47,380 nucleotides of DNA from a virus. Each line of letters starts with the position of its first letter. Position 1 is the first letter of the stretch. The stretch covers positions 1 to 47,380 of the IMG/VR virus record IMGVR_UViG_3300018083_000045; one strand, given 5' to 3'. The notes below the pieces were generated by a model. That model was given only the letters and a program-made list of their open reading frames with translations. It made no database searches and had not been told where the DNA came from. A program made the position numbers and the translations under genes. Of this stretch, positions 3,001-47,380 are shown in pieces.

Positions 3001-6000
3001 CGAGCTCGGCTTGCCGGGCTCATCATCCTGGAGGATCGAGGCTTTGGGCTTGGGCCTGGGCTTTGGCTTGGCCGCTTCCTTGGCCTTCTTCGTCGGACGC
3101 CACTCACTAGAAGTCAGGTCGTAGTCGATGAGGCCATCCTGCTGAAGAGCGGTGATGGCCTCCATGTACTCGGCCCGTCTCTTTGTCCAGGCTGGCGAGT
3201 TGGATAGCTCGTGCGCGTCCCGGCCACGCCCAATGTCCTTGAGAACCTCGGCCTCGATCTTGGCATTCCGCTTGACCGGCTCAACCTTGATTCCGTGCTC
3301 ATCCTCAAGCGATTCGACGGCCTTAGCCTCTTGTTCTGGCGAGGTGACTTTGCCCGGCTGCTCCTCCTTGGCGGGCATCGCCACTACCTTGCCCTTGCCC
3401 TTCTTGGGGGCGGCGGCCGGCGCGGCGGCGACTGGGGCCTTCGCCGCGACCTGGGCGGGAACCCTGAGCATCGTCCGGGGCTGGTCCTTCCCTTCCCGCG
3501 CCAGTCCTTTGGACAAAAAGAAGATAGTGTCCCTGATGGCGTGACCGGCAACTTCAGCTTCCTGCTCCGACATGCCGGTATGCGTCATCGCGAACTCGAG
3601 GTGTTGGCGCTGCCTCCCCGATTTCACGTCCCGCGGCGGCGTCGTGGGATTGCCGCCAGCCGCGATGTAGAGGGCCCGGTCGAGATCGGATTCGAAGTCC
3701 AGGTCAAGCCAGCCATAACCAGTCTGGTCGTCGGCCAGGGCGGGCGGGAGCTTCGGGAACGGCCCCTCGGCTTTGGCTTTTTTGGCCTCGGCCTCTTTCT
3801 CCTTCTCCTTCTCGTCGCGCTCGGTCTTCTTCTTTGCGGCCAGCTTGTCGGCGGCGGCGGCTTTCTTCTTGGCCTCCCTGGCATCCCGATCCTGCTCGTA
3901 GGTGACTGGTTTACCCCGTTCCTGCTCCACCTGGAACTTTTCGCGCTCGGCCAGCACTCGCTCCTGGTGGAGCCAAGCCGCAGTGTCGGCGATCTCGCGG
4001 AGTGTCTGCCCGGTAAACTTACGCAGTTGAGCGAGTTGGACGACTTGTGACCACGGCGGTAGCTCAGTTTTGAAGGAAGGCGGTAGCTCGGCTTTGAAGG
4101 TGGTCTGATACCAGTCCGGTTCCTGGCTGATGTCCTCGATGAAGGGAGCTACGGCTTCTCCCCCCGTCAGGCGAGTGGGCTTGGGCTCGGGCGAAGTGAC
4201 CTCGCCGGGCTGAACTTTGACAACTTCAGTTGACGGTGCCGCAACCTGGGTTGTCTTCCCCTTGCCCTTGCCCTTCTTCGGCGGCTGCTCTGCCTTGAAC
4301 TTCTCGAACTTCGCGTCTTCCCTCACGCGGTCGAGATCCTTGACCCGCTCCCAGCCCGGGCCGTAGGCTTGCAGCACGTCCTGGATCAGGGCTTCGAGTT
4401 GCTTCGCCTTGGCGGGATTCTTGGCCTTGGCCTCCTTCAGGGCTGGCCTGACTCTCTTCTTGTCATTCAGGATGTGAATGCCAACTGTGTAATTTGGCGC
4501 GACGTTTCCTACGATCGGCTTGATGCCGATATCCCGCATCAGAGCCTCAATGGCGTCGGTGGCATCGCCGAGGATCGCGCGGCCCTCGTCGGCGGTCTGG
4601 GCGGCATCCATCCTGGCGGTGAAGGAGGTGGCCTGTGGAGCCGGTGGAGCGGGTTTGGGCTCCTCCAGCGACGTCGGCGCCGGTTCCTTCTTCTCGCGGG
4701 CGGCGCGTTCGGCCTCGATCTCCCTTTCGGCCCGGGCTATGGCGGCCGGCTTGTGGAACGCCTGCTCCTGCTCCCACGCACGAACCTGATCCCGTAACAG
4801 GGAGCCCTCGTGCGTGTCGGCCCGGTAGGTGGGAGTCTTCACAACCTCGGCGATATGCTTGGTGATCGCGTCGTATTCGATCGCAGAGGGTTGCTTCGAG
4901 ACCTCCCCTTGAGCAGGTAAGGTAGGAGCAGCCTTCTGTCCTTTCGGCCAGCGAACAGCGTGGACTACATCGCCCCTGGTACTGAGTTGGATGGTTGCCG
5001 CTGGGGCCTTTGCCGTTGGAGCAGGCTTGGCCCGCTCCAATGCTGACGGCGGTGGTTCTAGTCCCTGTTGTCCCTCCTCCTTTCCTTCAGGTGCGGGCGG
5101 GTTCTTCCTGTACTCCGCAACCAGATCCTGCATGGCCCCGATTGCGGTCGTATGGACCTTCCCGTTGCCGCCTTCGACGATGAAGCCACCCGGTGCGGAT
5201 ACTACCCTCTCAGGTTTGATGCCCGGGTAGCGCGATTCTAACTGTTGCGCAATCTTTGGTTCGAGGCCAGGCGCGGCCACTACCGGCGGCGTAGGAGGTG
5301 TAGGAGGAGCGACTGTAGGTGGTGTAGGAGCCTTAACCTTAGGCTTGCCCGCCTTGGCCTGCGGCGCTCCTCCGACCAGCCCGCTGATCACCGCGTCCGG
5401 ATCGATGCCCCGCTTGGCGGCTACCCGGCGGAAGCGGTCGATCGCCGCCTGGGCGTCGGCGGCGAGGTCGGCGTACCCGGGCTCCTGGCCGGTGAGAGTC
5501 TGGAGCGTATCCAGCGCGGTTTTCAGGCTGGCGAGAACTTGGGGAGGCACTTCCCCCCGCGACCGCTGGAACTCGGCGATGACCTCCTGCTCAAGCTCCT
5601 CGGGAGTCTTCTCCGAGGTGATCTTGGACTCGCCGCCGCGCTCGCCTTTCAACGCGACATTGGTGAAAACGGTGCCGCCAGCCTTGGTTTGCTTGGGAGC
5701 GAAAACGCCTTCCTCGACGAGGCGATCGAGAATCTGCCGGGCCCCGTCGCGCGTGACGTTGAACTTCTTCACCAGGGCGCTTACGCCAAGCTCCGGGAAG
5801 TTCGAGGCAAAGGCTTTGGCTTCGTCGTAGACCGCCGCCGGGTCGGCGATCGGCCGCTGGACCGGTCCCGGCGTCGGCACAAGGCTCGTCGGATCCTGCT
5901 GGAAGGTAGCGCCAGGAACGGGGACCGGTCCTTCGGGGGAAGTGACCGTGCCAGGGGCCTGCTGGCCGGGCTGCCTCCCCGCCCGCTGATCCATGTAGTC

Positions 6001-22060: not shown

Positions 22061-23317
22061 CTAGTACGTGGGTTGCGCGAGGTTATAAATTACCCCCGCA
22101 TTCCCAAAATTTTGACACAAATAGTCCCTGAGGACGTAGAGGGCGAACCACGCGGTGGCGGCCGGTGATCCGTCTGCGGCGTACAAAGGAAACAACTTGT
22201 TCCCGTTCATCTCAAACCAGCCGACCGGGTCAATCTCGGCGATCGACCAGTCCTGCGGAGTGATGTAGTCGATGCGATTGGTGGCCTGGTGCGGGTCGAC
22301 CGTTGCCGGAATCCCGGCAAACATAAACTTCATATCGACCTTGGGCATGATGTCGGCATTAACCTTGCCGGAGGTGAGTTCGAAGTGGGCAATGTCCATG
22401 ACATTCTGCCTGATATTGGCCTGCTGCTTCTGGTTCACGATGGCCATCATCCCGGCAGGCGTGCCTTGGTCGATTTTGCGCCGCTCGATGATCTGATGGG
22501 CGATCTGCATGCCCATTTGCACCGTGGGCACATTGCCGCCGCCGTCGCGCACATTGACCAAAATCTCCGGCTCGTTGGCGCGGTTTACACCGTGCGTGGA
22601 TCCGCTCGTGGCGATGTTGTTGTGATAGAGGAGCCCTTTGAGACCCGCCGGAGTGGATCCGGAAGTGCCTTCGAAGACGATCTTATCTCCGGTGGCCGCA
22701 CCCGCGATCGTGACGGCGAAGGTCAACGAGCGGGTCGAGTAGTTGATGGATGAGAGTTTGAACGGGCCGCCGACCTTGGGAGTCACCAGAGTTGAATCGT
22801 AGACGTGATACCACTCGCCGCGCCGGAAACCCTGGACGCCGTTGACGGTGTCCATCACATACACGGTTTTCGAGGCAACGGTCGACTGGGTGAGCGAGGT
22901 GCCGAGGACCGCCGTGCCGTCGCCCATGTGCCAAGCCCTGTCGATGAAATCGGCGAAGTCAGGGATCATGGTCTTCAGCAACTTTTTGAAGCCCTGAAGC
23001 CGCGACTGCTCGGCCGCCGCGGTGGCGCGGCTGGCAAGTTGGGTGATCTGGCCTCTGAAGCTGAACGGGAAGTAGGTGGTGATCATCACGCCGCCTTCCT
23101 GTGCGCTCCCAAGTCCCAGGCCGCCGCCGTCCGGGTTGTAGGTGCCGACCCGGCCACCATTCGTAGTTAGGTAAGTCGCGCGGAAATCGCGCTCCGAGAC
23201 CTTCTCAACATCGGCTTTCGAGTTGATGAGATTGACAACCGTATCGAAGCGCCCGAACCAGTCAGGCAGCTTGGGCGCAACTTTTTCCATTTGCGCGAAA
23301 ACGAGATCTGTGGCCAC
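22061..23317 (-). CDS. major capsid protein, 418 aa
   Basis: GTG 23317 with AAGGGAG about 7 nt upstream. The sequence has the pattern of HK97-fold capsid proteins of podovirus type: an N-terminal helix region (DWFGRFDTVVNLINSKADVE), an E-loop-like Gly-rich stretch (GTYNPDGGGLGLGSAQEGG), the spine helix region (ATAAAEQSRLQGFKKLLKTM), and a C-terminal A-domain with GWFEMNGNKLFPLYAADGSP and LYVLRDYLCQNFGNAGVI. It directly follows the scaffold gene, the usual order. A hairpin follows its stop. Confidence 0.88.
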   Translation of the reverse strand: MATDLVFAQMEKVAPKLPDWFGRFDTVVNLINSKADVEKVSERDFRATYLTTNGGRVGTYNPDGGGLGLGSAQEGGVMITTYFPFSFRGQITQLASRATAAAEQSRLQGFKKLLKTMIPDFADFIDRAWHMGDGTAVLGTSLTQSTVASKTVYVMDTVNGVQGFRRGEWYHVYDSTLVTPKVGGPFKLSSINYSTRSLTFAVTIAGAATGDKIVFEGTSGSTPAGLKGLLYHNNIATSGSTHGVNRANEPEILVNVRDGGGNVPTVQMGMQIAHQIIERRKIDQGTPAGMMAIVNQKQQANIRQNVMDIAHFELTSGKVNADIMPKVDMKFMFAGIPATVDPHQATNRIDYITPQDWSIAEIDPVGWFEMNGNKLFPLYAADGSPAATAWFALYVLRDYLCQNFGNAGVIYNLAQPTY

Positions 23318-27867: not shown

Positions 27868-28245
27868 CTAGTACTCTTCTTCGGGAAGCTCTTCTTCTTC
27901 TTCGGGGAGTCCTCCCCCCTCTTCTTCGAAGGGCATCGCCGTGTCGTCGACGGCCCCGGCGGCCGAGCCGAGGATTTCGAACTTGTCGCAGTGGCCATCG
28001 GGCTCGCAGTCGAACTTGTTCCGGTTGCAGAACATTCGTTCTTCGTCGAAGTGCTCGCAGCTTTCGCAGCGCTCACCGGCACTGGTGTAGTTGACCGATT
28101 CCTGCGAGATGGCGGTCGTGCCGCCCTTGGCTTCCGGCCCCGGGCCGGCCGATCGCGGCGGCGGCGGCGGCGGGCCTTTGGGAGGCGGCGGTGCCTCCAG
28201 CGAGGTCGGCGGCGCTCCCAAACCTTCGTCCATTGATGGGCTCAT
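27868..28245 (-). CDS. cysteine-knuckle protein with Pro-rich and acidic ends, 125 aa
   Basis: ATG 28245 overlaps the TerL stop by 4 nt (ATGA). Three zones are visible: a Pro-rich N-terminus (PPPPKGPPPPPP), a central five-cysteine block (CESCEHFDEERMFCNRNKFD, then CEPDGHCDKFE) and a Glu-rich end (EEEGGGLPEEEEELPEEEY). The C-x2-C...C...C...C-x-x-F pattern occurs in small metal-binding proteins found beside terminase and portal genes in many phages. No function is established. Tight coupling to TerL suggests a packaging-linked role. Confidence 0.7.
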   Translation of the reverse strand: MSPSMDEGLGAPPTSLEAPPPPKGPPPPPPRSAGPGPEAKGGTTAISQESVNYTSAGERCESCEHFDEERMFCNRNKFDCEPDGHCDKFEILGSAAGAVDDTAMPFEEEGGGLPEEEEELPEEEY

Positions 28246-30218
28246 GGGTTGATCTGACCTTTCCGGACTAGCATAGCGTCACGTAACAAAATACAGGACT
28301 CGCCCGCATTGTTTTGCTTATCGTAACGCTGCTGGGCCAGCCTGCCGATCATAATCCTCATGTTGAAGTCCTGATCCTGCGCGTTCGAGTTCGAAATCCG
28401 CGCCACTTCCTCCTCGATGTAGACCTCGCGCGGCACCTTTGATTCATGGTCTTTGAACCCCATCACACCGTAGCGCAGCGAGTCGGCGGGATCGTCGCCG
28501 ATCGTCGTCTCCGTCGAATCGAATTTTTTAACATCTTCGGGGTTGGTCGGATAGTCCGAGATGAGTTTTGGGATGGTCTCAATGAGAATCTGGCACTTAT
28601 CGTGGATCCGCAAACGCGGCAGGACCTCGTCCTTTTCCGCCGCGAACATCGCCATGTACTTCTGGTACGCCACGATGCCCTTGGTAAGCTGGATCTCCTC
28701 GGCGTAGGCCATATCGGGCTCGGCTTTCTTGCGCAGCGGCTGGAAGCGCAGCAGGCCGCGCAGGTACTCCCAGCCGTTCTCGCGCGCGTTGTTGGCGCGG
28801 GTGAACCAGATCGACGAACCCTCGATCTCGCTGGTGGCCAGCCGTTCCTCCCTCATCCGCATCGCGCCCGGCACGTCGATCTTCGACACCGCCAGTTCCT
28901 GCGGCGTGAACTCCATAATCAGCGAGGATCCTGGCCCCAGGATGCGCTGGACGCCGTAAGCGATCTGATCGCTGATCATGTGATCCTTGTCGCGCACCTG
29001 GAAGGCATCGGGCGAGAGGTAGCACCGCAAGCGCGGCTCGCGCATTTGCTCGAGCTTCGCCAGCGAGCGCCGCGCGATCTCCGCGCCGAGCTCGTCGGCG
29101 CCGTAACCGGCCACCACCAGTTCGTCCTCGACGTGAATACGCTTGTCCTGGCCGAGCGCGTACCAATACACCGCCGAATGGTGTTGATGGCCCCAGTCGA
29201 TCGACATCCAGCGATGGCACCAGCCGGGGATCGTAAAGCTGGGGATGACATGATACGCCTCGGGAAAATCCTTGAGCTCGGACGAGATCGCGCGCGACCG
29301 GAAGTTCGGATAGAACATGCCCGCGCTGATGTCCCAGTCGCCGTCGATCCACGCCTTCCGGCGCGACTCGGGATGCGACGGATCGGCGAGGCGGTCGGCA
29401 TAATGCGGATCCTGCGCGAGTAACTGCGGGTTGTCTTTCAGCGGCCCGTGTAAGTAGATCTTGACTCGCTTGGAATGCGGGTCGAACATCGGCGTCCCGT
29501 AGGGGAATAGCTCGCCGTTGGCGTGCTGGCGCACCTTGACGAAGCGGGCCTTCAGCCATTGCGCGCCTGGCCCATCGGGATTGGCGGTGAGGAGGATCTG
29601 CGGCCGCAATCCGGGCACCGTGGTGCGGTTCGAACTCAGGATGGCGGCGTAGAGCGCTTCGGACTTGATCTGCTCTGCTTCTTCAATAACGATACGGTGA
29701 TACTCATGACCCCTATATTGTTCAAAAGAAGCCTCATCCTTGAGGTAGCCGGTGTAAATCATGGCTCCGGTCGGAAACAGGAAGCTGGTCGGATTCCCCT
29801 TCTTCACGGCTCCCATGAGCTTGTAAATGGCCCACGCCTTTTCGATGGTCTCCTTCATCGCCTCGTTCGACAAGCGGAGGAGCGTGCCCACATACTTCGG
29901 GTTGTGAACGTAGAGCGCGGCCCAGGCGATCCCGGCGCTGGTTTTGCCGCCGCCGCGGGGCCCGCCGGCCAAAATCTCGTCGCAGATGAAGCGCTTGTCC
30001 GGAGCCTGCGGCGCGAGCGTGACCGGGTCGTAGAAGACGACGCCGTCCGGGTTACTCCAATAGAAGATCTGCTCCTGCATGCCCGGGTTGGCTTCCCAGA
30101 CTAACTGCTCGTTGTAAATAAATTTGGTGCGGTTGTAGGAGCCGATCTGGAGCGCCATCTGCTCCATCGTGAGCGGGACGGCGGCCTGGGGCTGGCGCGG
30201 CTTATTGGGACGGGGCAC
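28242..30218 (-). CDS. terL: terminase large subunit, 658 aa
   Basis: DNA-packaging motor ATPase and nuclease. Walker A is GGPRGGGKT (85-93), Walker B IVIEEA (176-181), coupling motif TANP (211-214). The RNase H-like nuclease acids are D341 (MSIDWGHQHH), D404 (YLSPDAF) and D576/D579 (DDPADSLRYG). The order and spacing are those of terminase large subunits. The start is GTG 30218. An ATG 17 codons later is possible, and neither has a good ribosome-binding site. A TATACT box lies about 10 nt before the GTG, so the mRNA may be nearly leaderless. Confidence 0.95.
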   Translation of the reverse strand: MPRPNKPRQPQAAVPLTMEQMALQIGSYNRTKFIYNEQLVWEANPGMQEQIFYWSNPDGVVFYDPVTLAPQAPDKRFICDEILAGGPRGGGKTSAGIAWAALYVHNPKYVGTLLRLSNEAMKETIEKAWAIYKLMGAVKKGNPTSFLFPTGAMIYTGYLKDEASFEQYRGHEYHRIVIEEAEQIKSEALYAAILSSNRTTVPGLRPQILLTANPDGPGAQWLKARFVKVRQHANGELFPYGTPMFDPHSKRVKIYLHGPLKDNPQLLAQDPHYADRLADPSHPESRRKAWIDGDWDISAGMFYPNFRSRAISSELKDFPEAYHVIPSFTIPGWCHRWMSIDWGHQHHSAVYWYALGQDKRIHVEDELVVAGYGADELGAEIARRSLAKLEQMREPRLRCYLSPDAFQVRDKDHMISDQIAYGVQRILGPGSSLIMEFTPQELAVSKIDVPGAMRMREERLATSEIEGSSIWFTRANNARENGWEYLRGLLRFQPLRKKAEPDMAYAEEIQLTKGIVAYQKYMAMFAAEKDEVLPRLRIHDKCQILIETIPKLISDYPTNPEDVKKFDSTETTIGDDPADSLRYGVMGFKDHESKVPREVYIEEEVARISNSNAQDQDFNMRIMIGRLAQQRYDKQNNAGESCILLRDAMLVRKGQINP

Positions 30219-31951: not shown

Positions 31952-32311
31952 TTAATTGGCCCGCGCCTTTTCCTTGAACGCCTGCGCCTTTTCCATGTTC
32001 GCCTGGGCGTGTTTGGCCAGTCTGGCCATCTCGTCGATCTTCTCGCGGATCTGCTTTTCCACGATGATGTACGCCGCGAAAGTCTCGTCGTACGGCACTT
32101 GGCGCACGATCTGGCCGGCCTTGTCGACCAGCGTGGCCGTGATCGACAGCAGACTCAGCGCCTCGTCGACAGACCTGCAATCGGTGATCATCAGCGTCAT
32201 CATCTCGCTGATATGCTTGAACCCGTTGGCCACCAGGCCGACCAGGATCAGCGCGTCACTGTGCGACAGGTCCAATAACACCCGGACCCGCGCCTTCTCA
32301 TCTGTTGCCAT
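31952..32311 (-). CDS. helical protein, first gene of the virion operon, 119 aa
   Basis: I start at ATG 32311 with GTCGAGGTGAAT upstream. The longer frame to 32509 is an antisense and leader artefact. The first 80 residues form a Leu/Asp-rich helical domain (RVLLDLSHSDALILVGLVAN, MMTLMITDCRSVDEALSLLS). The rest is a charged helix (KQIREKIDEMARLAKHAQAN). Function unknown. Its ribosome-binding site is the 3' arm of a perfect 11-bp inverted repeat in its own leader, so translation is probably controlled. Confidence 0.75.
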   Translation of the reverse strand: MATDEKARVRVLLDLSHSDALILVGLVANGFKHISEMMTLMITDCRSVDEALSLLSITATLVDKAGQIVRQVPYDETFAAYIIVEKQIREKIDEMARLAKHAQANMEKAQAFKEKARAN

Positions 32312-32420: not shown

Positions 32421-32442
32421 AGCGTATCACGTTTTGCGCAAA
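32421..32442 (-). promoter_or_regulatory. palindrome plus TACGCT box upstream of the virion operon
   Basis: On the minus strand TTTGCGCAAAA (plus 32432-32442) is followed 5 nt later by TACGCT (plus 32421-32426). It overlaps the end of the HNH gene and points toward the gene at 32311. The same pair of elements recurs at 33029, 36413 and 36587. The box is in the place of a -10 element; no separate -35 is visible, so the palindrome may bind an activator or a phage-specific factor. Confidence 0.55.
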
Positions 32443-32939
32443 GACGGCCTTCTATTGTTCGCCTGCTGCTTTGCCGTGGCCCATCTGACGTTGCCGGGCC
32501 GGTAGCCATCGTTGTTGTCCGGGTAGCGATCTATCGAGTGTTTGGAAGACGGTCTGGGGCCTACGTAGGCGTAGAACGATTCAAAACTCGCTCGCCATTC
32601 CGGACAGATGGTTATGCCTCTTCCGCCGTAATCAGCGTAGTTCCGGTCATTGGGATTGGTGCAGCGCTGGATCATGGAGCCCCAAACGTAATATTCCGGA
32701 ACCTCTCCCAACCTTTTGGGAAGCTCAGGACTGTGATGACGTTGCCGACCACTCCCCGGCAGGCAGCCGCACGATTTGGGCGATCCGTAGTGAAAGGCGT
32801 CCAACTGGACGATTTTTATGTTGCCGCACTCGCACTGACACTTCAGCATTCTGTTGTTGCCAATGCGAGGAAGTTCGCAAATTGCGGTCATCCGGCCGTT
32901 TTTGTCGCCGGGTTGTACGAAGATAGTTCTTGGTCGCAC
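32427..32939 (-). CDS. HNH-type endonuclease, 170 aa
   Basis: GTG 32939 with AAGGAGG 5 nt upstream. The N-terminal zinc-binding part has CQCECG (34-39) and CGC (57-59). The C-terminal part has YVWGSMIQRCTNPNDRNYAD, YGGRGITICPEW (104-115), SIDRYPDNNDGYRPGNVRWA and Q-x-x-N-N-R-R. This is the pattern of the free-standing phage HNH family that cuts DNA and often behaves as a homing endonuclease. Some phages need an HNH protein near terminase for packaging, so either role is possible. It is transcribed on its own, upstream of the virion operon. Confidence 0.85.
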   Translation of the reverse strand: MRPRTIFVQPGDKNGRMTAICELPRIGNNRMLKCQCECGNIKIVQLDAFHYGSPKSCGCLPGSGRQRHHSPELPKRLGEVPEYYVWGSMIQRCTNPNDRNYADYGGRGITICPEWRASFESFYAYVGPRPSSKHSIDRYPDNNDGYRPGNVRWATAKQQANNRRPSLRKT

Positions 32940-33028
32940 AGGGCCCTCCTTGGCTCTTTGCTACTTGGCCTGCACCGTTAGTAGCGGTGCGGGCCTCCCC
33001 GATTCTAATCCAAAAACCCCTTGCACGG

Positions 33029-33049
33029 TTTTGCGCAAAAGGGTACGCT
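33029..33049 (+). promoter_or_regulatory. palindrome TTTTGCGCAAAA plus TACGCT box, divergent region
   Basis: A perfect 12-bp palindrome (33029-33040), then GGG and TACGCT (33044-33049), directed toward the plus operon that starts at 33135. It lies between that operon and the HNH gene transcribed the other way. A separate inverted repeat (GCCTGCACCG/CGGTGCGGGC, about 32969-32995) lies on the HNH side. Confidence 0.55.
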
Positions 33050-33134
33050 CAGGATTGGATGGGGGCGCGGTGGGAGCCGGTCGACGAAGGAACGGCTTCT
33101 CATCAGACCCGCGCTTTCATCCGACTGAAGGCGT

Positions 33135-33362
33135 ATGAGCGAACATTGCCCCGGCTGCCGTAACTCGGATCCCACGCCGCCAGGCGTCGATCCGCTCGGC
33201 GTCATGCGGAAGCCGTTCGGCTTCTGCTTACGGTGTCAGAAAGACGAGCAGTATTGCGAGTGCGACGAGCCCCTCTTGGAGCCTCAGAACCCCAGTCACG
33301 GGACGATGTCGAAGACGATGGAGCATATCGGGCTTTGGCAGTGGAAAGCGATGAAGAAATGA
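33135..33362 (+). CDS. small cysteine-rich protein, 75 aa
   Basis: ATG 33135 with GAAGG upstream; first gene of the short plus-strand operon. Cysteines are arranged as C-P-G-C near the N-terminus, then CLRCQKDEQYCEC (about 31-43), a likely zinc-binding knuckle. The C-terminus is polar. The stop overlaps the next start (ATGA). No family recognised. Confidence 0.7.
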   Translation: MSEHCPGCRNSDPTPPGVDPLGVMRKPFGFCLRCQKDEQYCECDEPLLEPQNPSHGTMSKTMEHIGLWQWKAMKK

Positions 33363-33544
33363 AATTCTTAAAGGAACTCGGCTGCAAAGTGTTCGGCCAC
33401 GCACCGGCCTTTGCCTCCCTGAGCGTGCCTAACCACTGCATCACCTGTAAGACGCCCATGATGTGGAACCCCGGCACCGAGTGCTGGGACGCGCTCCAGG
33501 TAACACCGGAAGCGCCCCCGCAGTCCACCTGGAATGATTATTAA
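33359..33544 (+). CDS. small cysteine-containing protein, 61 aa
   Basis: ATG 33359 overlaps the previous stop by 4 nt; the longer frame from 33233 is shadow. It contains HCITCKTPMMWNPGTECWDA, a C-x2-C plus distant Cys arrangement that could bind zinc. Its tail overlaps the next gene by 11 nt. Function unknown. Confidence 0.65.
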   Translation: MKFLKELGCKVFGHAPAFASLSVPNHCITCKTPMMWNPGTECWDALQVTPEAPPQSTWNDY

Positions 33545-33743
33545 CTTACTCTGCCCCTCCTGCCAGGAGAGGAAAGTAACGCTGGTCGAAGGCACCAGCG
33601 AGTTTTTATGCACCAAATGCGGGGCCTGCGGCCGCGCCGCTTCCCAGCGCCCCCATATCATCTTCGCCATGCGCAACCAGTACTTACTCATCCGCGAAAA
33701 AAGGAGGAACACTCATGCAGGTTTTCAATGCGATCGACCTTAA
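33534..33743 (+). CDS. small zinc-ribbon protein, 69 aa
   Basis: ATG 33534 lies inside the end of the previous gene. CPSCQERKVTLVEGTSEFLC followed by TKCGACG is a classic zinc-ribbon spacing (about 7-33). The C-terminal end overlaps the next gene by 29 nt and its last residues (THAGFQCDRP) look like shadow coding. The true end is as the frame gives it, but the C-terminus is probably not constrained. Confidence 0.65.
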   Translation: MIINLLCPSCQERKVTLVEGTSEFLCTKCGACGRAASQRPHIIFAMRNQYLLIREKRRNTHAGFQCDRP

Positions 33744-33927
33744 CACCGTTCGTGAAGACGCGGCCCTGGACAACGGCTGGCGCATCGAGATCAGCGCCCA
33801 GAAGGCGAGCCTCACGCTCGCCGAGGCCCGCGACCTGGGTAAGATCCTCCGCGCCCTGGCTGACGATCCCGCCGCCATGCACCGCTCGCCCAAAGAAGAT
33901 CCTACTTTCTGCGAGGAGAAGTTATGA
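33715..33927 (+). CDS. small protein of unknown function, 70 aa
   Basis: ATG 33715 has a strong AAAGGAGG site. The sequence is FNAIDLNTVREDAALDNGWR, then LTLAEARDLGKILRALADDP, an alpha/beta fold with one clear helix. Stop overlaps the next start (ATGA). No family recognised. Confidence 0.7.
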   Translation: MQVFNAIDLNTVREDAALDNGWRIEISAQKASLTLAEARDLGKILRALADDPAAMHRSPKEDPTFCEEKL

Positions 33928-34151
33928 GCGCCTATGCTCCTTCGTTGAACAAAGTCATCCTGCGCTACAAGACCGCCACCACCGAAGTGACCATGCCTTT
34001 CGAGACCGTCGAGGAGGCCCGCTCCTATCTCGCCTACGTGATTCCCCGCAGGCTCAAAGAGGAGCGCGAGAACCGCGTCACCGGCCTCAACATCCCCTCG
34101 CCGGCCATCATCGAGGATTCCATCTACATCCACGAGGTCCATCAGCCATGA
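33924..34151 (+). CDS. small protein, 75 aa, paralogue of the next gene
   Basis: ATG 33924 (4-nt overlap, GAGGAG upstream). LNKVILRYKTATTEVTMPFE followed by TVEEARSYLA aligns with GNRVLVSYSTPDTQITLRFE and NVATARSY of the following gene, so the two arose by duplication. The pattern is two beta strands and a helix. Function unknown. Confidence 0.7.
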   Translation: MSAYAPSLNKVILRYKTATTEVTMPFETVEEARSYLAYVIPRRLKEERENRVTGLNIPSPAIIEDSIYIHEVHQP

Positions 34152-34321
34152 GCCGGATTTTCGATCCCCCGCGCCCGCTGGGAAACCGCGTGCTGGTGAG
34201 TTACTCGACGCCAGACACCCAGATCACGCTGCGCTTCGAGAATGTCGCCACCGCGCGTAGTTACAAGAACGGCGAGAAAGTAACTGCCGAAATCATATGC
34301 CTTCAGAAAGTAAATCCATGA
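34148..34321 (+). CDS. small protein, 57 aa, paralogue of the previous gene
   Basis: ATG 34148 overlaps the previous stop by 4 nt. The frame is open far upstream (to 33608), but only this part shares sequence with its neighbour. After the shared RFENVATARSY motif it ends with a short basic tail. Function unknown. Confidence 0.7.
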   Translation: MSRIFDPPRPLGNRVLVSYSTPDTQITLRFENVATARSYKNGEKVTAEIICLQKVNP

Positions 34322-34644
34322 ACGGAAACATCACCTTTGCCATCGAGCAATTCGAAGCGGCCTGCGACGAGGCCCTCGCCACGTTAGGCACTCATCACGC
34401 GGTCCAGATCATAAACCACCGCATCGAGCGGCGCCAGATCATCCAGGAACTCGCCCCCAAAGAGAATCACGGCGGCGAGAAACTGTTCACCCGCGGCATC
34501 GACCCGCGCCTCCAAAACCAAGCGGGGATGGCCGACCTGGAAGCCGCCGCTGCCCGCCAGCGGCTGGCCGAGGAGAATGCCCGCGACGAGGCCGCGCACA
34601 TCGAGGGGATCAAGGCCCTCAATAAAGTCTATGGTTGTAAGTGA
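34318..34644 (+). CDS. helical protein, 108 aa
   Basis: I choose ATG 34318, which gives the 4-nt overlap usual in this operon; ATG 34297 would add seven residues inside the previous gene. The protein is charged and helical (FAIEQFEAACDEALATLGTH, ADLEAAAARQRLAEENARDE). No cysteines and no known motif. Function unknown. Confidence 0.7.
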   Translation: MNGNITFAIEQFEAACDEALATLGTHHAVQIINHRIERRQIIQELAPKENHGGEKLFTRGIDPRLQNQAGMADLEAAAARQRLAEENARDEAAHIEGIKALNKVYGCK

Positions 34645-34769
34645 TGGATATATTTCTGACCGGGCTCGGATTTTTCATCCTCTTGAACGTCTTCGCCTGG
34701 ATCGACTTCAAGTGGCTCAGTCGCCGAAAACGCCGGCCCGGATCATCGCCTTCCCGATCCCCGGAGTAA
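34644..34769 (+). CDS. 41-residue single-helix membrane protein
   Basis: Starts at ATG 34644, overlapping the previous stop (TGATG). MDIFLTGLGFFILLNVFAWI is one transmembrane helix, followed by DFKWLSRRKRRP, a positive cytoplasmic end (N-out topology by charge), and a Ser/Pro tail. Codon bias is good for the helix but poor for the tail, which lies antisense to the minus-strand gene ending at 34717. A small holin-like or inner-membrane modulator is possible; no partner is seen. Confidence 0.55.
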   Translation: MDIFLTGLGFFILLNVFAWIDFKWLSRRKRRPGSSPSRSPE

Positions 34770-34887
34770 CATCGATCACGAATAACTCCTCGTCGGCGGC
34801 CGCATCGAGGTTGTAGACCGAAATCGGATGGTCCCCGTGCTCTTTCTGGAACATCCGCAGTAACTCGATCAACTCGGAGACGTCCAC
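34717..34887 (-). CDS. small acidic protein, 56 aa
   Basis: GTG 34887 follows the previous stop directly (GAGGTGGAGTAAGTG, with GAGGTG as ribosome-binding site). The sequence VDVSELIELLRMFQKEHGDH, PISVYNLDAAADEELFVIDV, TPGIGKAMIRAGVFGD is a credible alpha/beta fold with good codon bias. It is the last gene of the minus operon and overlaps the converging plus gene by 53 nt. Function unknown. Confidence 0.65.
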   Translation of the reverse strand: MDVSELIELLRMFQKEHGDHPISVYNLDAAADEELFVIDVTPGIGKAMIRAGVFGD

Positions 34888-35103
34888 TTACTCCACCTCA
34901 AGCTCGAAACCCCGCCGGGTCGCATGCCCGCCCGTGATCGCGAGTCCTGCCTCCAGGGCCGCCTTCAACACCGGCCCCGTCTTGCCATCTCTGAGCGGCA
35001 CCGCCACCACCACCACCCCGCCATCCACGTCGATCATCGTCTGGTAGGGCAAGCGCCGCCCGATCGCCGAGCGCACCTTCTCCAGGTTTTCCTTCGTCGT
35101 CAT
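34888..35103 (-). CDS. small alpha/beta protein, 71 aa
   Basis: ATG 35103 overlaps the upstream stop (ATGA); ATG 35109, two codons earlier, is an alternative. TKENLEKVRSAIGRRLPYQT is followed by strands DGGVVVVAVPLRD and a helix AALEAGLAITGGHA. Function unknown. Confidence 0.65.
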   Translation of the reverse strand: MTTKENLEKVRSAIGRRLPYQTMIDVDGGVVVVAVPLRDGKTGPVLKAALEAGLAITGGHATRRGFELEVE

Positions 35104-35306
35104 TCCCATACCGTATCAGTGATCGCCAGCCGGCCGCAGCGGCTACAGGTCTTCGAAGTCCACAATCCGCCATTTTCCGCCACCACCGGCCCGTCATAGA
35201 GATGCGGCTGGTTGCCTTCGCACTGGCGCGGCCCGAAAAATATCTTGGTCAGGTACTGCGCCGCCGCGCACTGCTCGCACGAGCGCTTGCGCGACCTGAG
35301 CAACAC
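35100..35306 (-). CDS. small cysteine-rich protein, 68 aa
   Basis: I prefer GTG 35306, which has AAGGGA 5 nt upstream and follows the previous gene's stop by 7 nt. ATG 35363 (87 residues, adding a further Cys) has no ribosome-binding site and would overlap that gene by 50 nt. CEQC and CSRCGRL near the two ends can form a zinc ribbon around FFGPRQCEGNQPHLYDGPVV. Function unknown. Confidence 0.6.
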   Translation of the reverse strand: MLLRSRKRSCEQCAAAQYLTKIFFGPRQCEGNQPHLYDGPVVAENGGLWTSKTCSRCGRLAITDTVWE

Positions 35307-35313
35307 CGGTCCC

Positions 35314-35529
35314 TTAGGGCAGGTGTGGAGGTTGGTCCGAGAGACCGCCGCCGCGCTTGCCATCCTGCTGCCTTTTTACCATGTTCTCCCGCAGCCGGTC
35401 CCGGAACGCCACGATCTGGGCATGAACCCGGAAGGCCCGCGCCAAAGCGTCCCGCCGCGCCTTATCCCCTTGTTCCACAAGCGTTCCACGCTTTTCCGGG
35501 GAGTGTTCCACAGGATGTTCCACGGTCAT
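35314..35529 (-). CDS. basic helical protein, 71 aa
   Basis: ATG 35529 overlaps the previous stop (ATGA) with GGAGGATAG upstream. Rich in Arg/Lys/Glu (RRDALARAFRVHAQIVAFRD, RLRENMVKRQQDGK), without cysteine. Possibly nucleic-acid binding. No family recognised. Confidence 0.65.
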   Translation of the reverse strand: MTVEHPVEHSPEKRGTLVEQGDKARRDALARAFRVHAQIVAFRDRLRENMVKRQQDGKRGGGLSDQPPHLP

Positions 35530-36173
35530 CTATCCTCCGGCTCCTCGAAAATCGACGCCGCCCGCCCCATTCCGCCCTTCTTCATCTTCTGGATCGTCTC
35601 GCGATGCACAACCTTCTCGTAATCGTCGTCGCGCGGCAATCCCCTGTTGTACTTGGTCGTCCTGGACAACGCATACGCATTCGATTCGAGCGGCCCGATC
35701 GCATTGTCCAGCTTCCGCTTCCACGCCCCCGGCCCCCAGTCGAGCGTCCCCGCCCCATAGTCCTTCGGCTCGGTGTCCATCTTCTCGGATTGGTCGAGGT
35801 CGACCAACCTGTGCTGCAATCCGTGCGCGATCTCGTGCCGCCTCACCTGACCGAACATGTCCTGTTTGTTTAACACTTCACCCGGATCCTGATGCTGCGG
35901 AATGTCCTTGTCGATCGAGATATACTCGTCTACCCCACGGTCATTCTGCATCCGCTTCTTCGCCGCCGGATCGTTGAGGTTGTACCTCCGGTGCCGCCCG
36001 TGCGCCCCAGCCAACTCCTCGTGATAGATCGGAATCCGCATGTACCGGTCCTGGGCCACCGGCTCCGGCTTCTTCTGCTCCCGGCCGTACTTGGCCGCGA
36101 GCTCGGCCTTCTGAATCACCCCGCCCTGGCGCTCATACTCCTTCAGCGGCTTCTTCGGTGGTGGCTGCGGCAT
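35526..36173 (-). CDS. zincin-type metallopeptidase-like protein, 215 aa
   Basis: ATG 36173 with GAGGAA upstream. The core RRHEIAHGLQH (111-121) holds the HExxH zinc motif (H113, E114, H117). E163 in PLESNAYALS, about 46 residues later, fits the E-x-x-A third ligand of gluzincin-like families. The N-terminus is basic and Pro-rich (PPPKKPLKEY). I recall similar HExxH segments in phage polyvalent proteins. No signal peptide, so it would act in the cell or in the virion. The substrate cannot be inferred. Confidence 0.7.
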   Translation of the reverse strand: MPQPPPKKPLKEYERQGGVIQKAELAAKYGREQKKPEPVAQDRYMRIPIYHEELAGAHGRHRRYNLNDPAAKKRMQNDRGVDEYISIDKDIPQHQDPGEVLNKQDMFGQVRRHEIAHGLQHRLVDLDQSEKMDTEPKDYGAGTLDWGPGAWKRKLDNAIGPLESNAYALSRTTKYNRGLPRDDDYEKVVHRETIQKMKKGGMGRAASIFEEPEDR

Positions 36174-36177
36174 TTCC

Positions 36178-36378
36178 TCACCGTTCTACCACGGCCGCCG
36201 TCCTCATCCGCTCCATCTCCTCGTAAATCTCCTCCACCGCCTCCTGCACATGATACGAATGCCCTCCATGCAAATCCACCCGCGTCCCCTGCTTCGATTC
36301 CTGGATCGCCAATATCGCCTCCACCCGCACCCATACCACCGCCTCCACTCCTTCCCGCGTCAACCGGATGAACTTCAC
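36178..36378 (-). CDS. small protein, 66 aa, first gene of the minus mini-operon
   Basis: GTG 36378 has GGGAGG upstream, located in the loop of a perfect 8-bp hairpin whose 3' arm reaches the start codon. FIRLTREGVEAVVWVRVEAI, LAIQESKQGTRVDLHGGHSY, HVQEAVEEIYEEMERM: strand-strand-helix, resembling small FlbD-like or YabA-like domains, but not recognised with confidence. Confidence 0.7.
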   Translation of the reverse strand: MKFIRLTREGVEAVVWVRVEAILAIQESKQGTRVDLHGGHSYHVQEAVEEIYEEMERMRTAAVVER

Positions 36379-36400
36379 TTACTCATCCTCCCGAGTAAGT
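36377..36400 (-). promoter_or_regulatory. hairpin presenting the ribosome-binding site in its loop
   Basis: Minus strand: ACTTACTC (36400-36393), loop GGGAGGAT, GAGTAAGT (36384-36377), then G of the GTG start. The arms pair perfectly. A TACACT box (plus 36401-36406) lies immediately upstream, so the transcript would begin at about the 5' arm. Confidence 0.6.
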
Positions 36401-36424
36401 AGTGTAAGTTAGTTTTGCGCAAAA
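36401..36424 (-). promoter_or_regulatory. palindrome plus TACACT box upstream of the minus mini-operon
   Basis: TTTTGCGCAAAA (36413-36424, perfect 12-bp palindrome) followed on the minus strand by CTAACT and TACACT (plus 36401-36406). Same architecture as at 32421 and 33029. Confidence 0.55.
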
Positions 36425-37043
36425 CGGCAAGTGGACTATTCCGGCGGCGCTCCAGTGAAAATAGTCCAGCGTCTACGAGTACGCCCTTACCCCTGGACTG
36501 GACCGGGATCCCCAAAAACACGAATGCCCCGGTCTTGAGTGATAGACCAGGGCACCCGTGCGTTAAAATGTTCACCGGACGCCCACAGCGTATCACATCT
36601 TTATCCCTTTGCGCAAAATATTTTCCACTTGCGCTCCGGCCGCCTCCAGGCGCAAAATGGGAATCGTTAAAATGGACACCGCGGCTGAATCCCCAAATCG
36701 AGCGCGCCAGATCGGCTCTGCGCTTCTCGGAGCAAGGCCAGCGTTGTATACGGTCTCCCCGACCCGCTCCCCGTGGCGGTCGGCTCTCTTACCTCAAAGC
36801 GGGACGGCTCCGATCGTCGAACTCAGCGCCTCTGCAATACCAAACACCGGGGTGAATAACCCGTGGGATCCTGAGTTCGGGCTGCTACAGCACGAGGAAA
36901 CGCCTCAAAACGACTATCCTCAAGATTGCAACGAAGTTAAGAGCAATCCGAAACTGTAGCCTCGGGGCCAAATACGCCCCCCAACTCGGCCCGCCGCGAA
37001 ACAACAGGAGCGTAGTCCCGTGCGGGGGATCATAGGGGGGCCT
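36425..37043. other. non-coding control region rich in inverted and direct repeats
   Basis: About 620 nt without a credible gene. It contains an inverted repeat TGGACTATT/AATAGTCCA (36432-36440, 36460-36468). It also contains a nested pair CCCTGG...GACCGGG / CCCCGGTC...CCAGGG (36491-36552) and a direct repeat CGTTAAAATGnnCACCG (36561-36577 and 36665-36681). Another palindrome/box element lies at 36587-36618. The right half (36690-37043) has no structure I can name. Open frames here (36375-36596 minus, 36609-36959 plus) have poor codon bias. A control or replication region is possible. Confidence 0.5.
36587..36618 (-). promoter_or_regulatory. distal copy of the palindrome/TACGCT element
   Basis: Minus strand: TTTTGCGCAAA (plus 36608-36618), 15 nt, then GATACGCT (box at plus 36587-36592). 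The gap is longer than at the other copies. If active it would give the gene at 36378 a second, 200-nt leader that includes the nested hairpins at 36432-36552. Confidence 0.45.
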
Positions 37044-37049
37044 TATAAT
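37044..37049 (+). promoter_or_regulatory. TATAAT -10 box for a leaderless mRNA
   Basis: Consensus TATAAT ends 6 nt before the ATG at 37056, and no ribosome-binding site is present. Transcription would start at about the A of the ATG. No clear -35 box is seen. Confidence 0.5.
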
Positions 37050-37055
37050 CCACTC

Positions 37056-37196
37056 ATGCCCCTCCAAAAAGGCTCTTCCTCCAAAACCATCCAGAAGAAC
37101 ATCAAAACCGAGATCGCAGCCGGGAAACCCCCAAAACAAGCCGCCGCGATCGCATACAACGTCGCCGGAAAAGCAAAATCCTCCCCTAAAAAGTAA
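37056..37196 (+). CDS. small phage protein, DUF6496-like, 46 aa
   Basis: The sequence [20 protein letters not shown] then [20 protein letters not shown] matches a short conserved phage protein (pattern K-x-x-I-x-x-N-I-K-x-E-x-x-A-G-K-P-x-K-Q-A-x-A-I-A) that I recall as DUF6496. Its function is unknown, and copies are common as orphan genes in tailed phages. It is basic, with two short helices. It stands alone between the control region and the small-terminase-like gene, preceded by a TATAAT box too close for a leader. Confidence 0.8.
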
Positions 37197-37667
37197 CCCA
37201 CCACCACGGAAAACGGGGCCCCACCCTCGAAAACAGGCCCCGGACGGTTACTAGAACTACTAGCACCGATCCGTCTTCCGCTGCTCCCGAGCCGCAGCCT
37301 GCGGCTGCTCGCATCCTTCGGATGCGGGGGGTTGGGAGGTCTGAAAGCTCAACGCGAGCGCAACGCGCAAGCGCTCAAATGCTTCCTCAGGCTCGGCGGT
37401 GCGCCGGGCCGCAAATACTCCCTCTATCTCCCTTACCCCCACTACCTCCTCCAAAAAAAACCCCGATTTCGAACTTTCACACTCCCGCCAACCCTCTCCC
37501 GCTTTCCTCGAATTCTGTACTTCACACCTCTCGCAACACACCCCTCGGCCTGGCCGGCGGGGCCCCGCGGATTCCGGGCATGGGGTGGTCGCCTTCATCC
37601 TATTGAGCCGCATCGACTTGCTCGAGGTCGAGCCCTCAGAATCGGCCGGCGACCCGGCGAGCCTCCA
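37197..37667. other. non-coding spacer with hairpins and a pyrimidine tract
   Basis: 470 nt with no gene I can support. Hairpins: CGGGGCC/GGCCCCG (37212-37242), AGCCGCAG/CTGCGGCT around 37290-37310, and CGCATCC-TTC-GGATGCG (37309-37325). Next comes a 70-nt pyrimidine-rich tract (37408-37480) ending in AAAAAAAA. Weak frames exist on both strands (37260-37613 minus, 37332-37727 plus), without ribosome-binding sites and with mixed codon bias. Confidence 0.45.
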
Positions 37668-38618
37668 TCAATCGGAGTCGAGGCCGTCGCCGTCTTCGCC
37701 GTCTTCGGCCCGATCCGACACACCTGACAATGTCCGTTGTAGGGTATCTTCCAGGGCCGGTGGGCCCGGCGGCATCTCTACATCAATGAATTCCAGGGGG
37801 ATTCCCGCCGCGACGTGCCCTTCCACTTGAGCGGCGGTCGCCGAAACCCGGCGGCGCGCATCATTGATACGATGCCGGGCCACGCCGGGCCCGGCTCCGC
37901 TGGCCGGGATCGGCTGCAGTCCACTTGATAAGACCACCACCAGCGGGCCGGTGCCGCTCGCGCCGCCAGCGCCGAATGCGCCACGGCCCATCTGGGCCAG
38001 GAACTCACCCGTCTCGACGGCGGCGGCGCGCTCCAGGGCGCGTTCCTCTTGGAGCAGGCCGGTGTCGAGCCGCGCATCGACCACTTCCCGCCATTGATCC
38101 TTTGCCAAGCGGATCGACCGCATCTCTTTAACGATCAGGCCGGTCGCATCGCCCGCAACGCCGGGATCGGCCATCGCGGCGCGGGCCTGGACCACTGCTT
38201 CCAATTGATCGGTGCGGCGCTGTATACGTGCGAGCCTGTTCTCAGCCTGCGTCACCGCCAGCTTCACGAACCGCTGATCAGCGCGGGCCTGCAATGCCTC
38301 CCGATTGGCAAGCAATCTTGCAGGCAAGTGCGTTTGGCCATGTCGATGAATCGAGTCATCACTGACCGCGAATTCCCGCGCCAAGTCCGGGTAGCTCCGA
38401 TCACCGGCCACCAGGAGCGCATCGATGCGGTCGCGGGCCGGGTGAGAGCACACGGTGCAGCGTGGGCCGGGAGTGCGAGGTGGAAGGCCGGTGAGCGGGC
38501 CGGTGGCGCTGGCGGGTGGGGGCGTGGTGATTCCAGAGCTCGACGGGTACACGGTGGCAGATTTATTTTCGGATTCATCGCACCTGGCGTCATCCTGTTG
38601 ATTCTGAGAGGGTTCCAT
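37668..38618 (-). CDS. small-terminase-like HTH protein, 316 aa
   Basis: ATG 38618. After a disordered N-terminus comes RCTVCSHPARDRIDALLVAG, DRSYPDLAREFAVSDDSIHR, H-x3-HLPARL (about 53-102): a C-x-x-C knuckle plus helix-turn-helix ending R-H-x-x-x-H-L. I recall this pattern in phage small terminase subunits. Then follow a long coiled coil (ENRLARIQRRTDQLEAVVQA) and an acidic, Gly/Ala-rich tail. It lies 7.5 kb from terL but on the same strand. A DNA-binding regulator is the alternative. Its mRNA is probably leaderless (TACGCT box 7 nt upstream). Confidence 0.65.
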   Translation of the reverse strand: MEPSQNQQDDARCDESENKSATVYPSSSGITTPPPASATGPLTGLPPRTPGPRCTVCSHPARDRIDALLVAGDRSYPDLAREFAVSDDSIHRHGQTHLPARLLANREALQARADQRFVKLAVTQAENRLARIQRRTDQLEAVVQARAAMADPGVAGDATGLIVKEMRSIRLAKDQWREVVDARLDTGLLQEERALERAAAVETGEFLAQMGRGAFGAGGASGTGPLVVVLSSGLQPIPASGAGPGVARHRINDARRRVSATAAQVEGHVAAGIPLEFIDVEMPPGPPALEDTLQRTLSGVSDRAEDGEDGDGLDSD

Positions 38619-38624
38619 GCGGTG

Positions 38625-38634
38625 AGCGTATCAC
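38625..38634 (-). promoter_or_regulatory. TACGCT box directly upstream of the TerS-like gene
   Basis: Minus strand GTGATACGCT followed by CACC and ATG. The same 10 bases occur at 32421 and 36587, but here without the TTTTGCGCAAAA palindrome. The distance to the ATG predicts a transcript starting at the start codon. Confidence 0.4.
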
Positions 38635-38755
38635 GGTTGGAATAGTTCCGATTATCTCTCTAATAGGTGTAACCTTCGGGTTGCCGGTGGCATCCTCAAC
38701 TATTCGGCTCTCCGTTTCGAGATGAGAGGTACGAAGGGAAAGGTGAACAGAAGAG

Positions 38756-46953: not shown

Positions 46954-47249
46954 CAAACAGTGCGCGGTTGCGCCAGAAGAACGCGAGAGAGGCATACGAA
47001 CGAACGGTCAAGAAACTGGGGGGCGGCAACGCCCCCCAGTTTCCGCCTAAGCCCACTGAACAGGCGGCTGCCTCGCCGCCGGCCAAGAGGAAGCCGGGCC
47101 GCAGACCCGGCGATCCGACAAACACGGGGCCAGGCCGGGGTTTGACGGTCCCGTGCTGGTGGGGCTGCGGCGAACTGGTGAGCGGCGTGACGCTGCGGCC
47201 GCACTGGGTGAACTGCCCGAACCGGCCAGACAGGCGGCAGACGCCGTGA
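46950..47249 (+). CDS. basic protein with C-terminal zinc finger, 99 aa
   Basis: I start at TTG 46950 because it overlaps the previous stop (TTGA) as the other starts here do; GTG 46917 is an alternative. Basic, Pro-rich middle ([20 protein letters not shown]), then [20 protein letters not shown] and C-P-N-R: a C-x3-C...H...C finger. Likely nucleic-acid binding. Its stop overlaps the methyltransferase start. Confidence 0.65.
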
Positions 47250-47380
47250 CCTACGGCAGCGTGTTCGCCGGGATCGGCGGGCTCGACCTTGGACTTGACC
47301 GGGCGGGTATGATCTGTCAGTGGCAAATAGAAAAAGACGAGTACTGTCGCCGCGTGCTGGCGCGGCACTGGCCGGGAGTG
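47246..47380 (+). CDS. C5-cytosine DNA methyltransferase, N-terminus only
   Basis: GTG 47246 overlaps the previous stop by 4 nt. The 45 residues in the window hold motif I of cytosine-5 methyltransferases ([17 protein letters not shown], the S-adenosylmethionine site F-x-G-x-G-G) and the motif II region ([18 protein letters not shown]). The catalytic Pro-Cys loop lies beyond the edge. In a phage it probably protects its DNA from host restriction. Confidence 0.9.

Follow-up and report, generated by a model that had tools for sequence, protein, structure and literature searches.

The window analyzed here, a virus record of 47,380 bases with a G+C content of 62%, carries in its control regions a recurring 12-base palindrome, to which one small phage repressor most likely binds to shut off several gene blocks at once. 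In the reading that we consider probable, the palindrome is the operator of a phage-encoded HTH repressor, the TACRCT boxes that accompany it are sigma-70-type -10 elements, and a lysogeny or quiescence switch is the likeliest function of the system.

Recurrence of the palindrome at promoters

The core of the palindrome, TTTGCGCAAA, occurs in four exact copies in the window, against a mean of 0.035 and a maximum of 1 in 200 dinucleotide shuffles, and all four copies are followed within 20 nt downstream by TACRCT, a pairing found in none of the shuffles. The claim of an initial annotation that a recurring palindrome is combined with TACGCT or TACACT at control regions is thus borne out, as is the excess over shuffled sequence by which it was to be checked. 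With up to two mismatches, TTTTGCGCAAAA has five matches in the window versus a shuffle mean of 1.05: exact at copies 2 and 3, with one mismatch at copies 1 and 4 (Table 1), and with two mismatches at 23289, inside a gene. The string TGATACGCT, whose shape is that of an extended -10 element (TGnTAnnnT), occurs in the window only on the minus strand at 32421, 36587 and 38625. These correspond to copies 1 and 4 and to the box-only copy, which had been listed initially and is real.

Table 1 Promoter sites and associated features in the window
Feature	Position (strand)	Elements	Gene or operon	Counterparts
Copy 1 promoter region	32421..32443 (-)	palindrome 32432-32443; extended -10 TGATACGCT 32421-32429; no -35 box	leftward structural operon, first gene 31952-32311	homologous leftward promoters in L123, G003, G010
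Copy 2	33021..33049 (+)	-35 TTGCAC 33021-33026; 17-bp spacer, with palindrome 33029-33040 inside it; -10 TACGCT 33044-33049	rightward small-gene operon from 33135	homologous rightward promoters in L123, G003, G010
Copy 3	36401..36430 (-)	-35 TTGCCG 36425-36430; palindrome 36413-36424; -10 TACACT 36401-36406; spacing 18	leftward, ahead of gene 36178-36378	L123, L124, L131
Copy 4	36587..36618 (-)	palindrome 36607-36618, of which -35 TTGCGC 36611-36616 is part; 18-bp spacer; extended -10 TGATACGCT 36587-36595	promoter of predicted small RNA	G005 57365, same geometry
Box-only copy	38625..38649 (-)	extended -10 TGATACGCT 38625-38633; different inverted repeat GGAATAGTTCC 38639-38649
Predicted small RNA	36508..36580 (-)	~70 nt, between copies 4 and 3; sigma-70 promoter = copy 4
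HNH endonuclease gene	32427..32939 (-)	phrog_374, E=7e-54	inserted between the two divergent promoters

Eleven related contigs, with terminases 81–100% identical, were found via the large terminase gene (28242-30218, phrog_2); among them is L122, which is practically identical to the virus of the window. Searched for the palindrome as initially proposed, ten of the eleven carry the exact 10-base core. Five relatives (G003, G005, G007, G008 and G010) span 73–74 kb each and are probably near-complete genomes. The record stops within a DNA methyltransferase gene (47153-47380, plus strand, phrog_363), and the window is therefore a fragment, apparently about two thirds of a genome that extends for about 26 kb more. 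The best terminase matches in the reference phage collection were only about 25% identical; a genome scan with the terminase alignment gave distant matches only (at most 31% identity), which point to no particular host. All five ~73-kb relatives encode tyrosine integrases, which suggests that these phages are temperate. One of them, G003, has a gene for a 6-pyruvoyl tetrahydropterin synthase (QueD-like; L157:17029-17382), possibly in a modified-base pathway.

Across six genomes, namely the window and the five ~73-kb relatives, TTGCGCAA occurs in 33 copies, versus 0.5–1.2 per genome expected from a Markov model. Twenty-five of the 33 overlap a sigma-70-like promoter (score of at least 6.4), as compared with 7.5% of random implants; the six genomes being related, a binomial value for this overlap is not to be taken literally. 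The match at 5245 in the window and several in the relatives, all poorly flanked and located within genes or close to them, were excluded from the operators, and a collection-wide scan with a loose pattern was set aside as evidence, chance matches being expected in many contigs. A matrix built from 25 sites, and scored on these same training sites in related and hence not independent genomes, gave at least 17.6 bits for 22 sites, all of them at promoters, and at most 15.7 bits for all other matches. The consensus of the palindrome is YTTTGCGCAAAR. Among the literature matches listed for TTGCGCAA were eukaryotic C/EBP sites and unrelated work.

The symmetric site is repeated at phage promoters within the footprint of the polymerase. 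Relative to the first base of the -10, its centre lies 9–14 nt upstream in spacer sites, 18–20 nt upstream where it forms the -35, and 14 nt downstream where it lies over the start point. No promoter site has its centre near -41, where activators usually bind, and repression by occlusion is therefore the natural reading of this geometry. Palindromes are found ahead of the structural operon, of the divergent small-gene operon and of a third operon, and also ahead of a conserved predicted small RNA. A further conserved palindrome stands ahead of an operon in G003, G007, G008 and G010; in G003 the first gene of this operon looks like a replication organiser, and it has no match in Pfam or PHROG. 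In G007 (about 66650-67730, L166), TTTGCACTAC..GTAGTGCAAA inverted repeats take the place of the c3 and c4 palindromes; they adjoin an added gene that matches HTH_3, and both operator and regulator may have been exchanged here.

A small HTH protein as candidate regulator

The best candidate binder of the palindrome is a small putative HTH protein of 67–74 aa, encoded in all five ~73-kb relatives as well as in L188 and L191. Its gene is not in the 47-kb window, presumably because it lies in the third of the genome that the record lacks. Across these phages, the protein (..LLSRVAERLGMSPAAVSRTFHGIT..) is 57–72% identical to the first member. Operators are found at the promoter of its own gene, where they lie at the -35 or in the spacer and over the start. 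In G003, G007 and L188, where the protein has 69–72 aa, the -10 of the gene lies between two palindromes at a distance of 33 bp from each other. The distance is 28 bp in G005 and about 23 bp in G010, where one copy is imperfect, and G008 has one palindrome and a degenerate second. This doubling at the small HTH gene, together with the conservation of the palindrome at promoters across the group, supports the original suggestion that the palindrome is the site of a phage regulator.

Counting against this candidate, its gene is absent from the window, the spacing of the doubled operators varies, and the HTH assignment is weak by sequence. The profile matches stay below cut-offs, with HTH_3 (PF01381) scores of 19.2, 15.9 and 16.3 bits versus a curated cut-off of 23, which places the protein outside the XRE/HTH_3 family as defined; a phage-repressor profile also matches weakly. 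The predicted model has four helices (pLDDT 84.6). It gave no significant match in Foldseek, a PDB sequence search with the protein returned nothing useful, and the reference phage collection holds no match to it.

In the mechanism that we propose, a host polymerase of the sigma-70 type would use the promoters with TACRCT as their -10. The HTH protein, whose gene would be the first of an early operon in the portion of the genome that the window does not cover, would bind each site, probably as a dimer, within the footprint of RNA polymerase and block initiation. A single regulator would then hold down the structural operon, the divergent small-gene operon, the third operon and the small RNA, and would also repress the possible replication genes and, through the doubled operator, its own gene. 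A search for Peptidase_S24 (lambda CI-type) repressors found matches in none of the six genomes and in 10 of 14 control genomes; this result and the integrases of the ~73-kb relatives favour the HTH protein as the lysogeny repressor. We regard as doubtful the bolder version in which the ~70-residue protein is the sole master regulator of the structural, replication, small-RNA and own promoters and the palindrome doubles as a two-way -35. If that version is true, the HNH insertion at the shared operator (Table 1) still leaves each divergent promoter its own copy.

The same operator and protein might instead form a Cro-like lytic timer, with lysogeny set otherwise: the HTH protein, made early, would repress its own operon and delay the promoters of the structural and replication genes until it is titrated by the replicated genomes. 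In size the HTH gene resembles cro; it is the first gene of an early operon that also contains a phrog_3657 gene and an SbcC-like ATPase gene, and the autorepression geometry at its promoter fits such a role too. Against this variant, a separate CI-like (S24) repressor was not found in the five ~73-kb relatives, and an integrase is present; we hold it to be possible and the less likely of the two roles.

It is unlikely that the operator is bound by a host regulator or by some phage protein other than the HTH protein. In favour of another binder, the sites were examined in phage genomes only, and the assignment of the HTH protein comes from its doubled sites. Against it, all members with the HTH gene have a double site at it (counting the degenerate second copy of G008), the sites are confined genome-wide to phage promoters, and at the c3/c4 locus of G007 the change to another inverted repeat, beside the added HTH_3 gene, suggests that the regulators there are phage-encoded.

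Promoters separable from the palindrome

The TACGCT and TACACT hexamers are the -10 boxes of ordinary sigma-70-type promoters. Elsewhere in the group, the -10 takes the forms TAAGAT, TATATT, TATTCT and TACACT, with TTGnnn 17–18 bp upstream. The statement in the initial annotation that no sigma-70 -35 is seen applies to copy 1 only, since copies 2, 3 and 4 each have one.

An alignment of the divergent region served for comparing the relatives only. In those without the HNH gene, the structural operon runs leftward and the MSEHCPGC gene rightward from a region with one palindrome and a -10 box on either side of it. The rightward promoters read TTGCCG-17-TAAGAT in G003 and G010, TTGTTT-17-TACGCT in L123 and TTGCAC-17-TACGCT in the window; the leftward ones read TTGCGC-18-TGTTACGCT in L123 and G010 and TTGCGC-18-TGTTATCGT in G003. 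The rightward promoter of G008 is away from the palindrome and yet has TTGCTT-17-TACGCT, and the c4 promoter of L131, where the palindrome is absent, retains TTGGTG-18-TGATACGCT. Promoter and palindrome are therefore separable, and their separate loss identifies the palindrome as an operator and not as the promoter of an alternative polymerase.

That last option, in which the palindrome would be the recognition element of an alternative polymerase or sigma factor, had been raised initially and agrees with the recurrence of the element pair upstream of operons, but we reject it as highly improbable: palindrome and box are 3 to 14 nt apart in the window where a fixed spacing is expected, sigma-70 -35 boxes stand at the right spacing, palindromes also lie over start points, promoters persist without them, and a Sigma70_r4 domain search for a phage-encoded sigma factor gave no match. 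A search for single-subunit RNA polymerases was also without a match and counts for little, as its control search matched nothing either. Similarly rejected, with a very low probability, is the reading that the palindrome is a mere -35 shared by back-to-back promoters, with no regulator; TTGCGC is the same from both strands and occupies the -35 position in many sites, in both directions at G008 52488 and G010 67829, but sites that cover the start point, or that lie in a spacer whose promoter has a -35 of its own, are still symmetric, and the one-way sites c3 and c4 retain the full palindrome.

The HNH gene is carried by L122/L023 and absent from all other relatives. It is flanked by palindrome copies 1 and 2, and its last codons overlap the palindrome of copy 1, a site correctly recognized in the initial annotation except that its end lies at 32443 (minus strand) and not at 32442. 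Copies 1 and 2 do not count as independent sites, since both flank the HNH gene and relatives lacking it have just one palindrome at this place. It appears that the palindrome was duplicated when the HNH gene inserted and that the leftward promoter was left with a shorter spacing: the distance from palindrome to -10 at copy 1 is shorter than in L123, hence the lack of a -35, and this promoter would rely on its extended -10.

Each copy had been said to face the first gene of an operon. This is modified at copy 4, which on the minus strand faces the predicted small RNA. The 3' end of this RNA consists of a very stable hairpin (about 36518-36561), which serves as a predicted terminator, and a U-run (fold z-score -4.91); the hairpin is kept in five relatives, and an Rfam search with 36508-36580 gave no match. 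At the box-only promoter, the ATG of gene 37668-38618 (minus strand) falls roughly at the predicted start point, so that the gene is apparently leaderless; the gene is kept in relatives, and the inverted repeat GGAATAGTTCC is not evident there. Its product, a conserved protein of 316 aa, has an HTH-like stretch and no family match.

Comparison with known phage repressors

In phage lambda, CI and Cro act on palindromic operators inside divergent promoters (OR and OL) and regulate their own synthesis, and control of the late genes falls to the antiterminator Q. The system described here would share the operators inside divergent promoters and the autoregulation. In contrast to lambda, the operator appears to control even the structural operon, and no S24-type CI was found.

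The immunity repressors of Cluster A mycobacteriophages (PMC9283540) resemble the present case in that one repressor has many sites per genome. Their stoperators are asymmetric and terminate elongation, whereas the sites here are symmetric and lie inside promoters. Aca HTH autorepressors (PMC9410906) are likewise small HTH proteins with one or two inverted repeats in and beside their own core promoter; the Aca sites serve the acr-aca operon, in contrast to the sites at several operons genome-wide seen here.

The functionally closest described case is gp33 of mycobacteriophage BPs, which binds five regulatory regions via 12-bp palindromes and regulates several promoters, the early lytic one included (PMC4557955). 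The HTH protein would likewise be one small phage repressor that serves several promoters across the genome through a 12-bp palindrome. The full BPs operators combine the palindrome with a variable second half site 5–8 bp away (PMC4557955), as opposed to single palindromes here, with centre-to-centre distances of about 23–33 bp where they are doubled at the HTH gene. BPs gp33 has 103 or 136 aa versus about 70 aa for the HTH protein, and the BPs attP lies within the repressor gene (PMC4557955).

The analysis yields a testable regulatory map for an uncultured phage group, with its co-regulated promoters, the probable controlling protein and the meaning of the box, and it reveals a conserved, operator-controlled predicted small RNA and an HNH gene whose point of insertion coincides with a shared operator. 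We file the system under phage repressors and operators, outside the BPs gp33 and Aca families: the class of mechanism is well known, and the phage group was previously undescribed.
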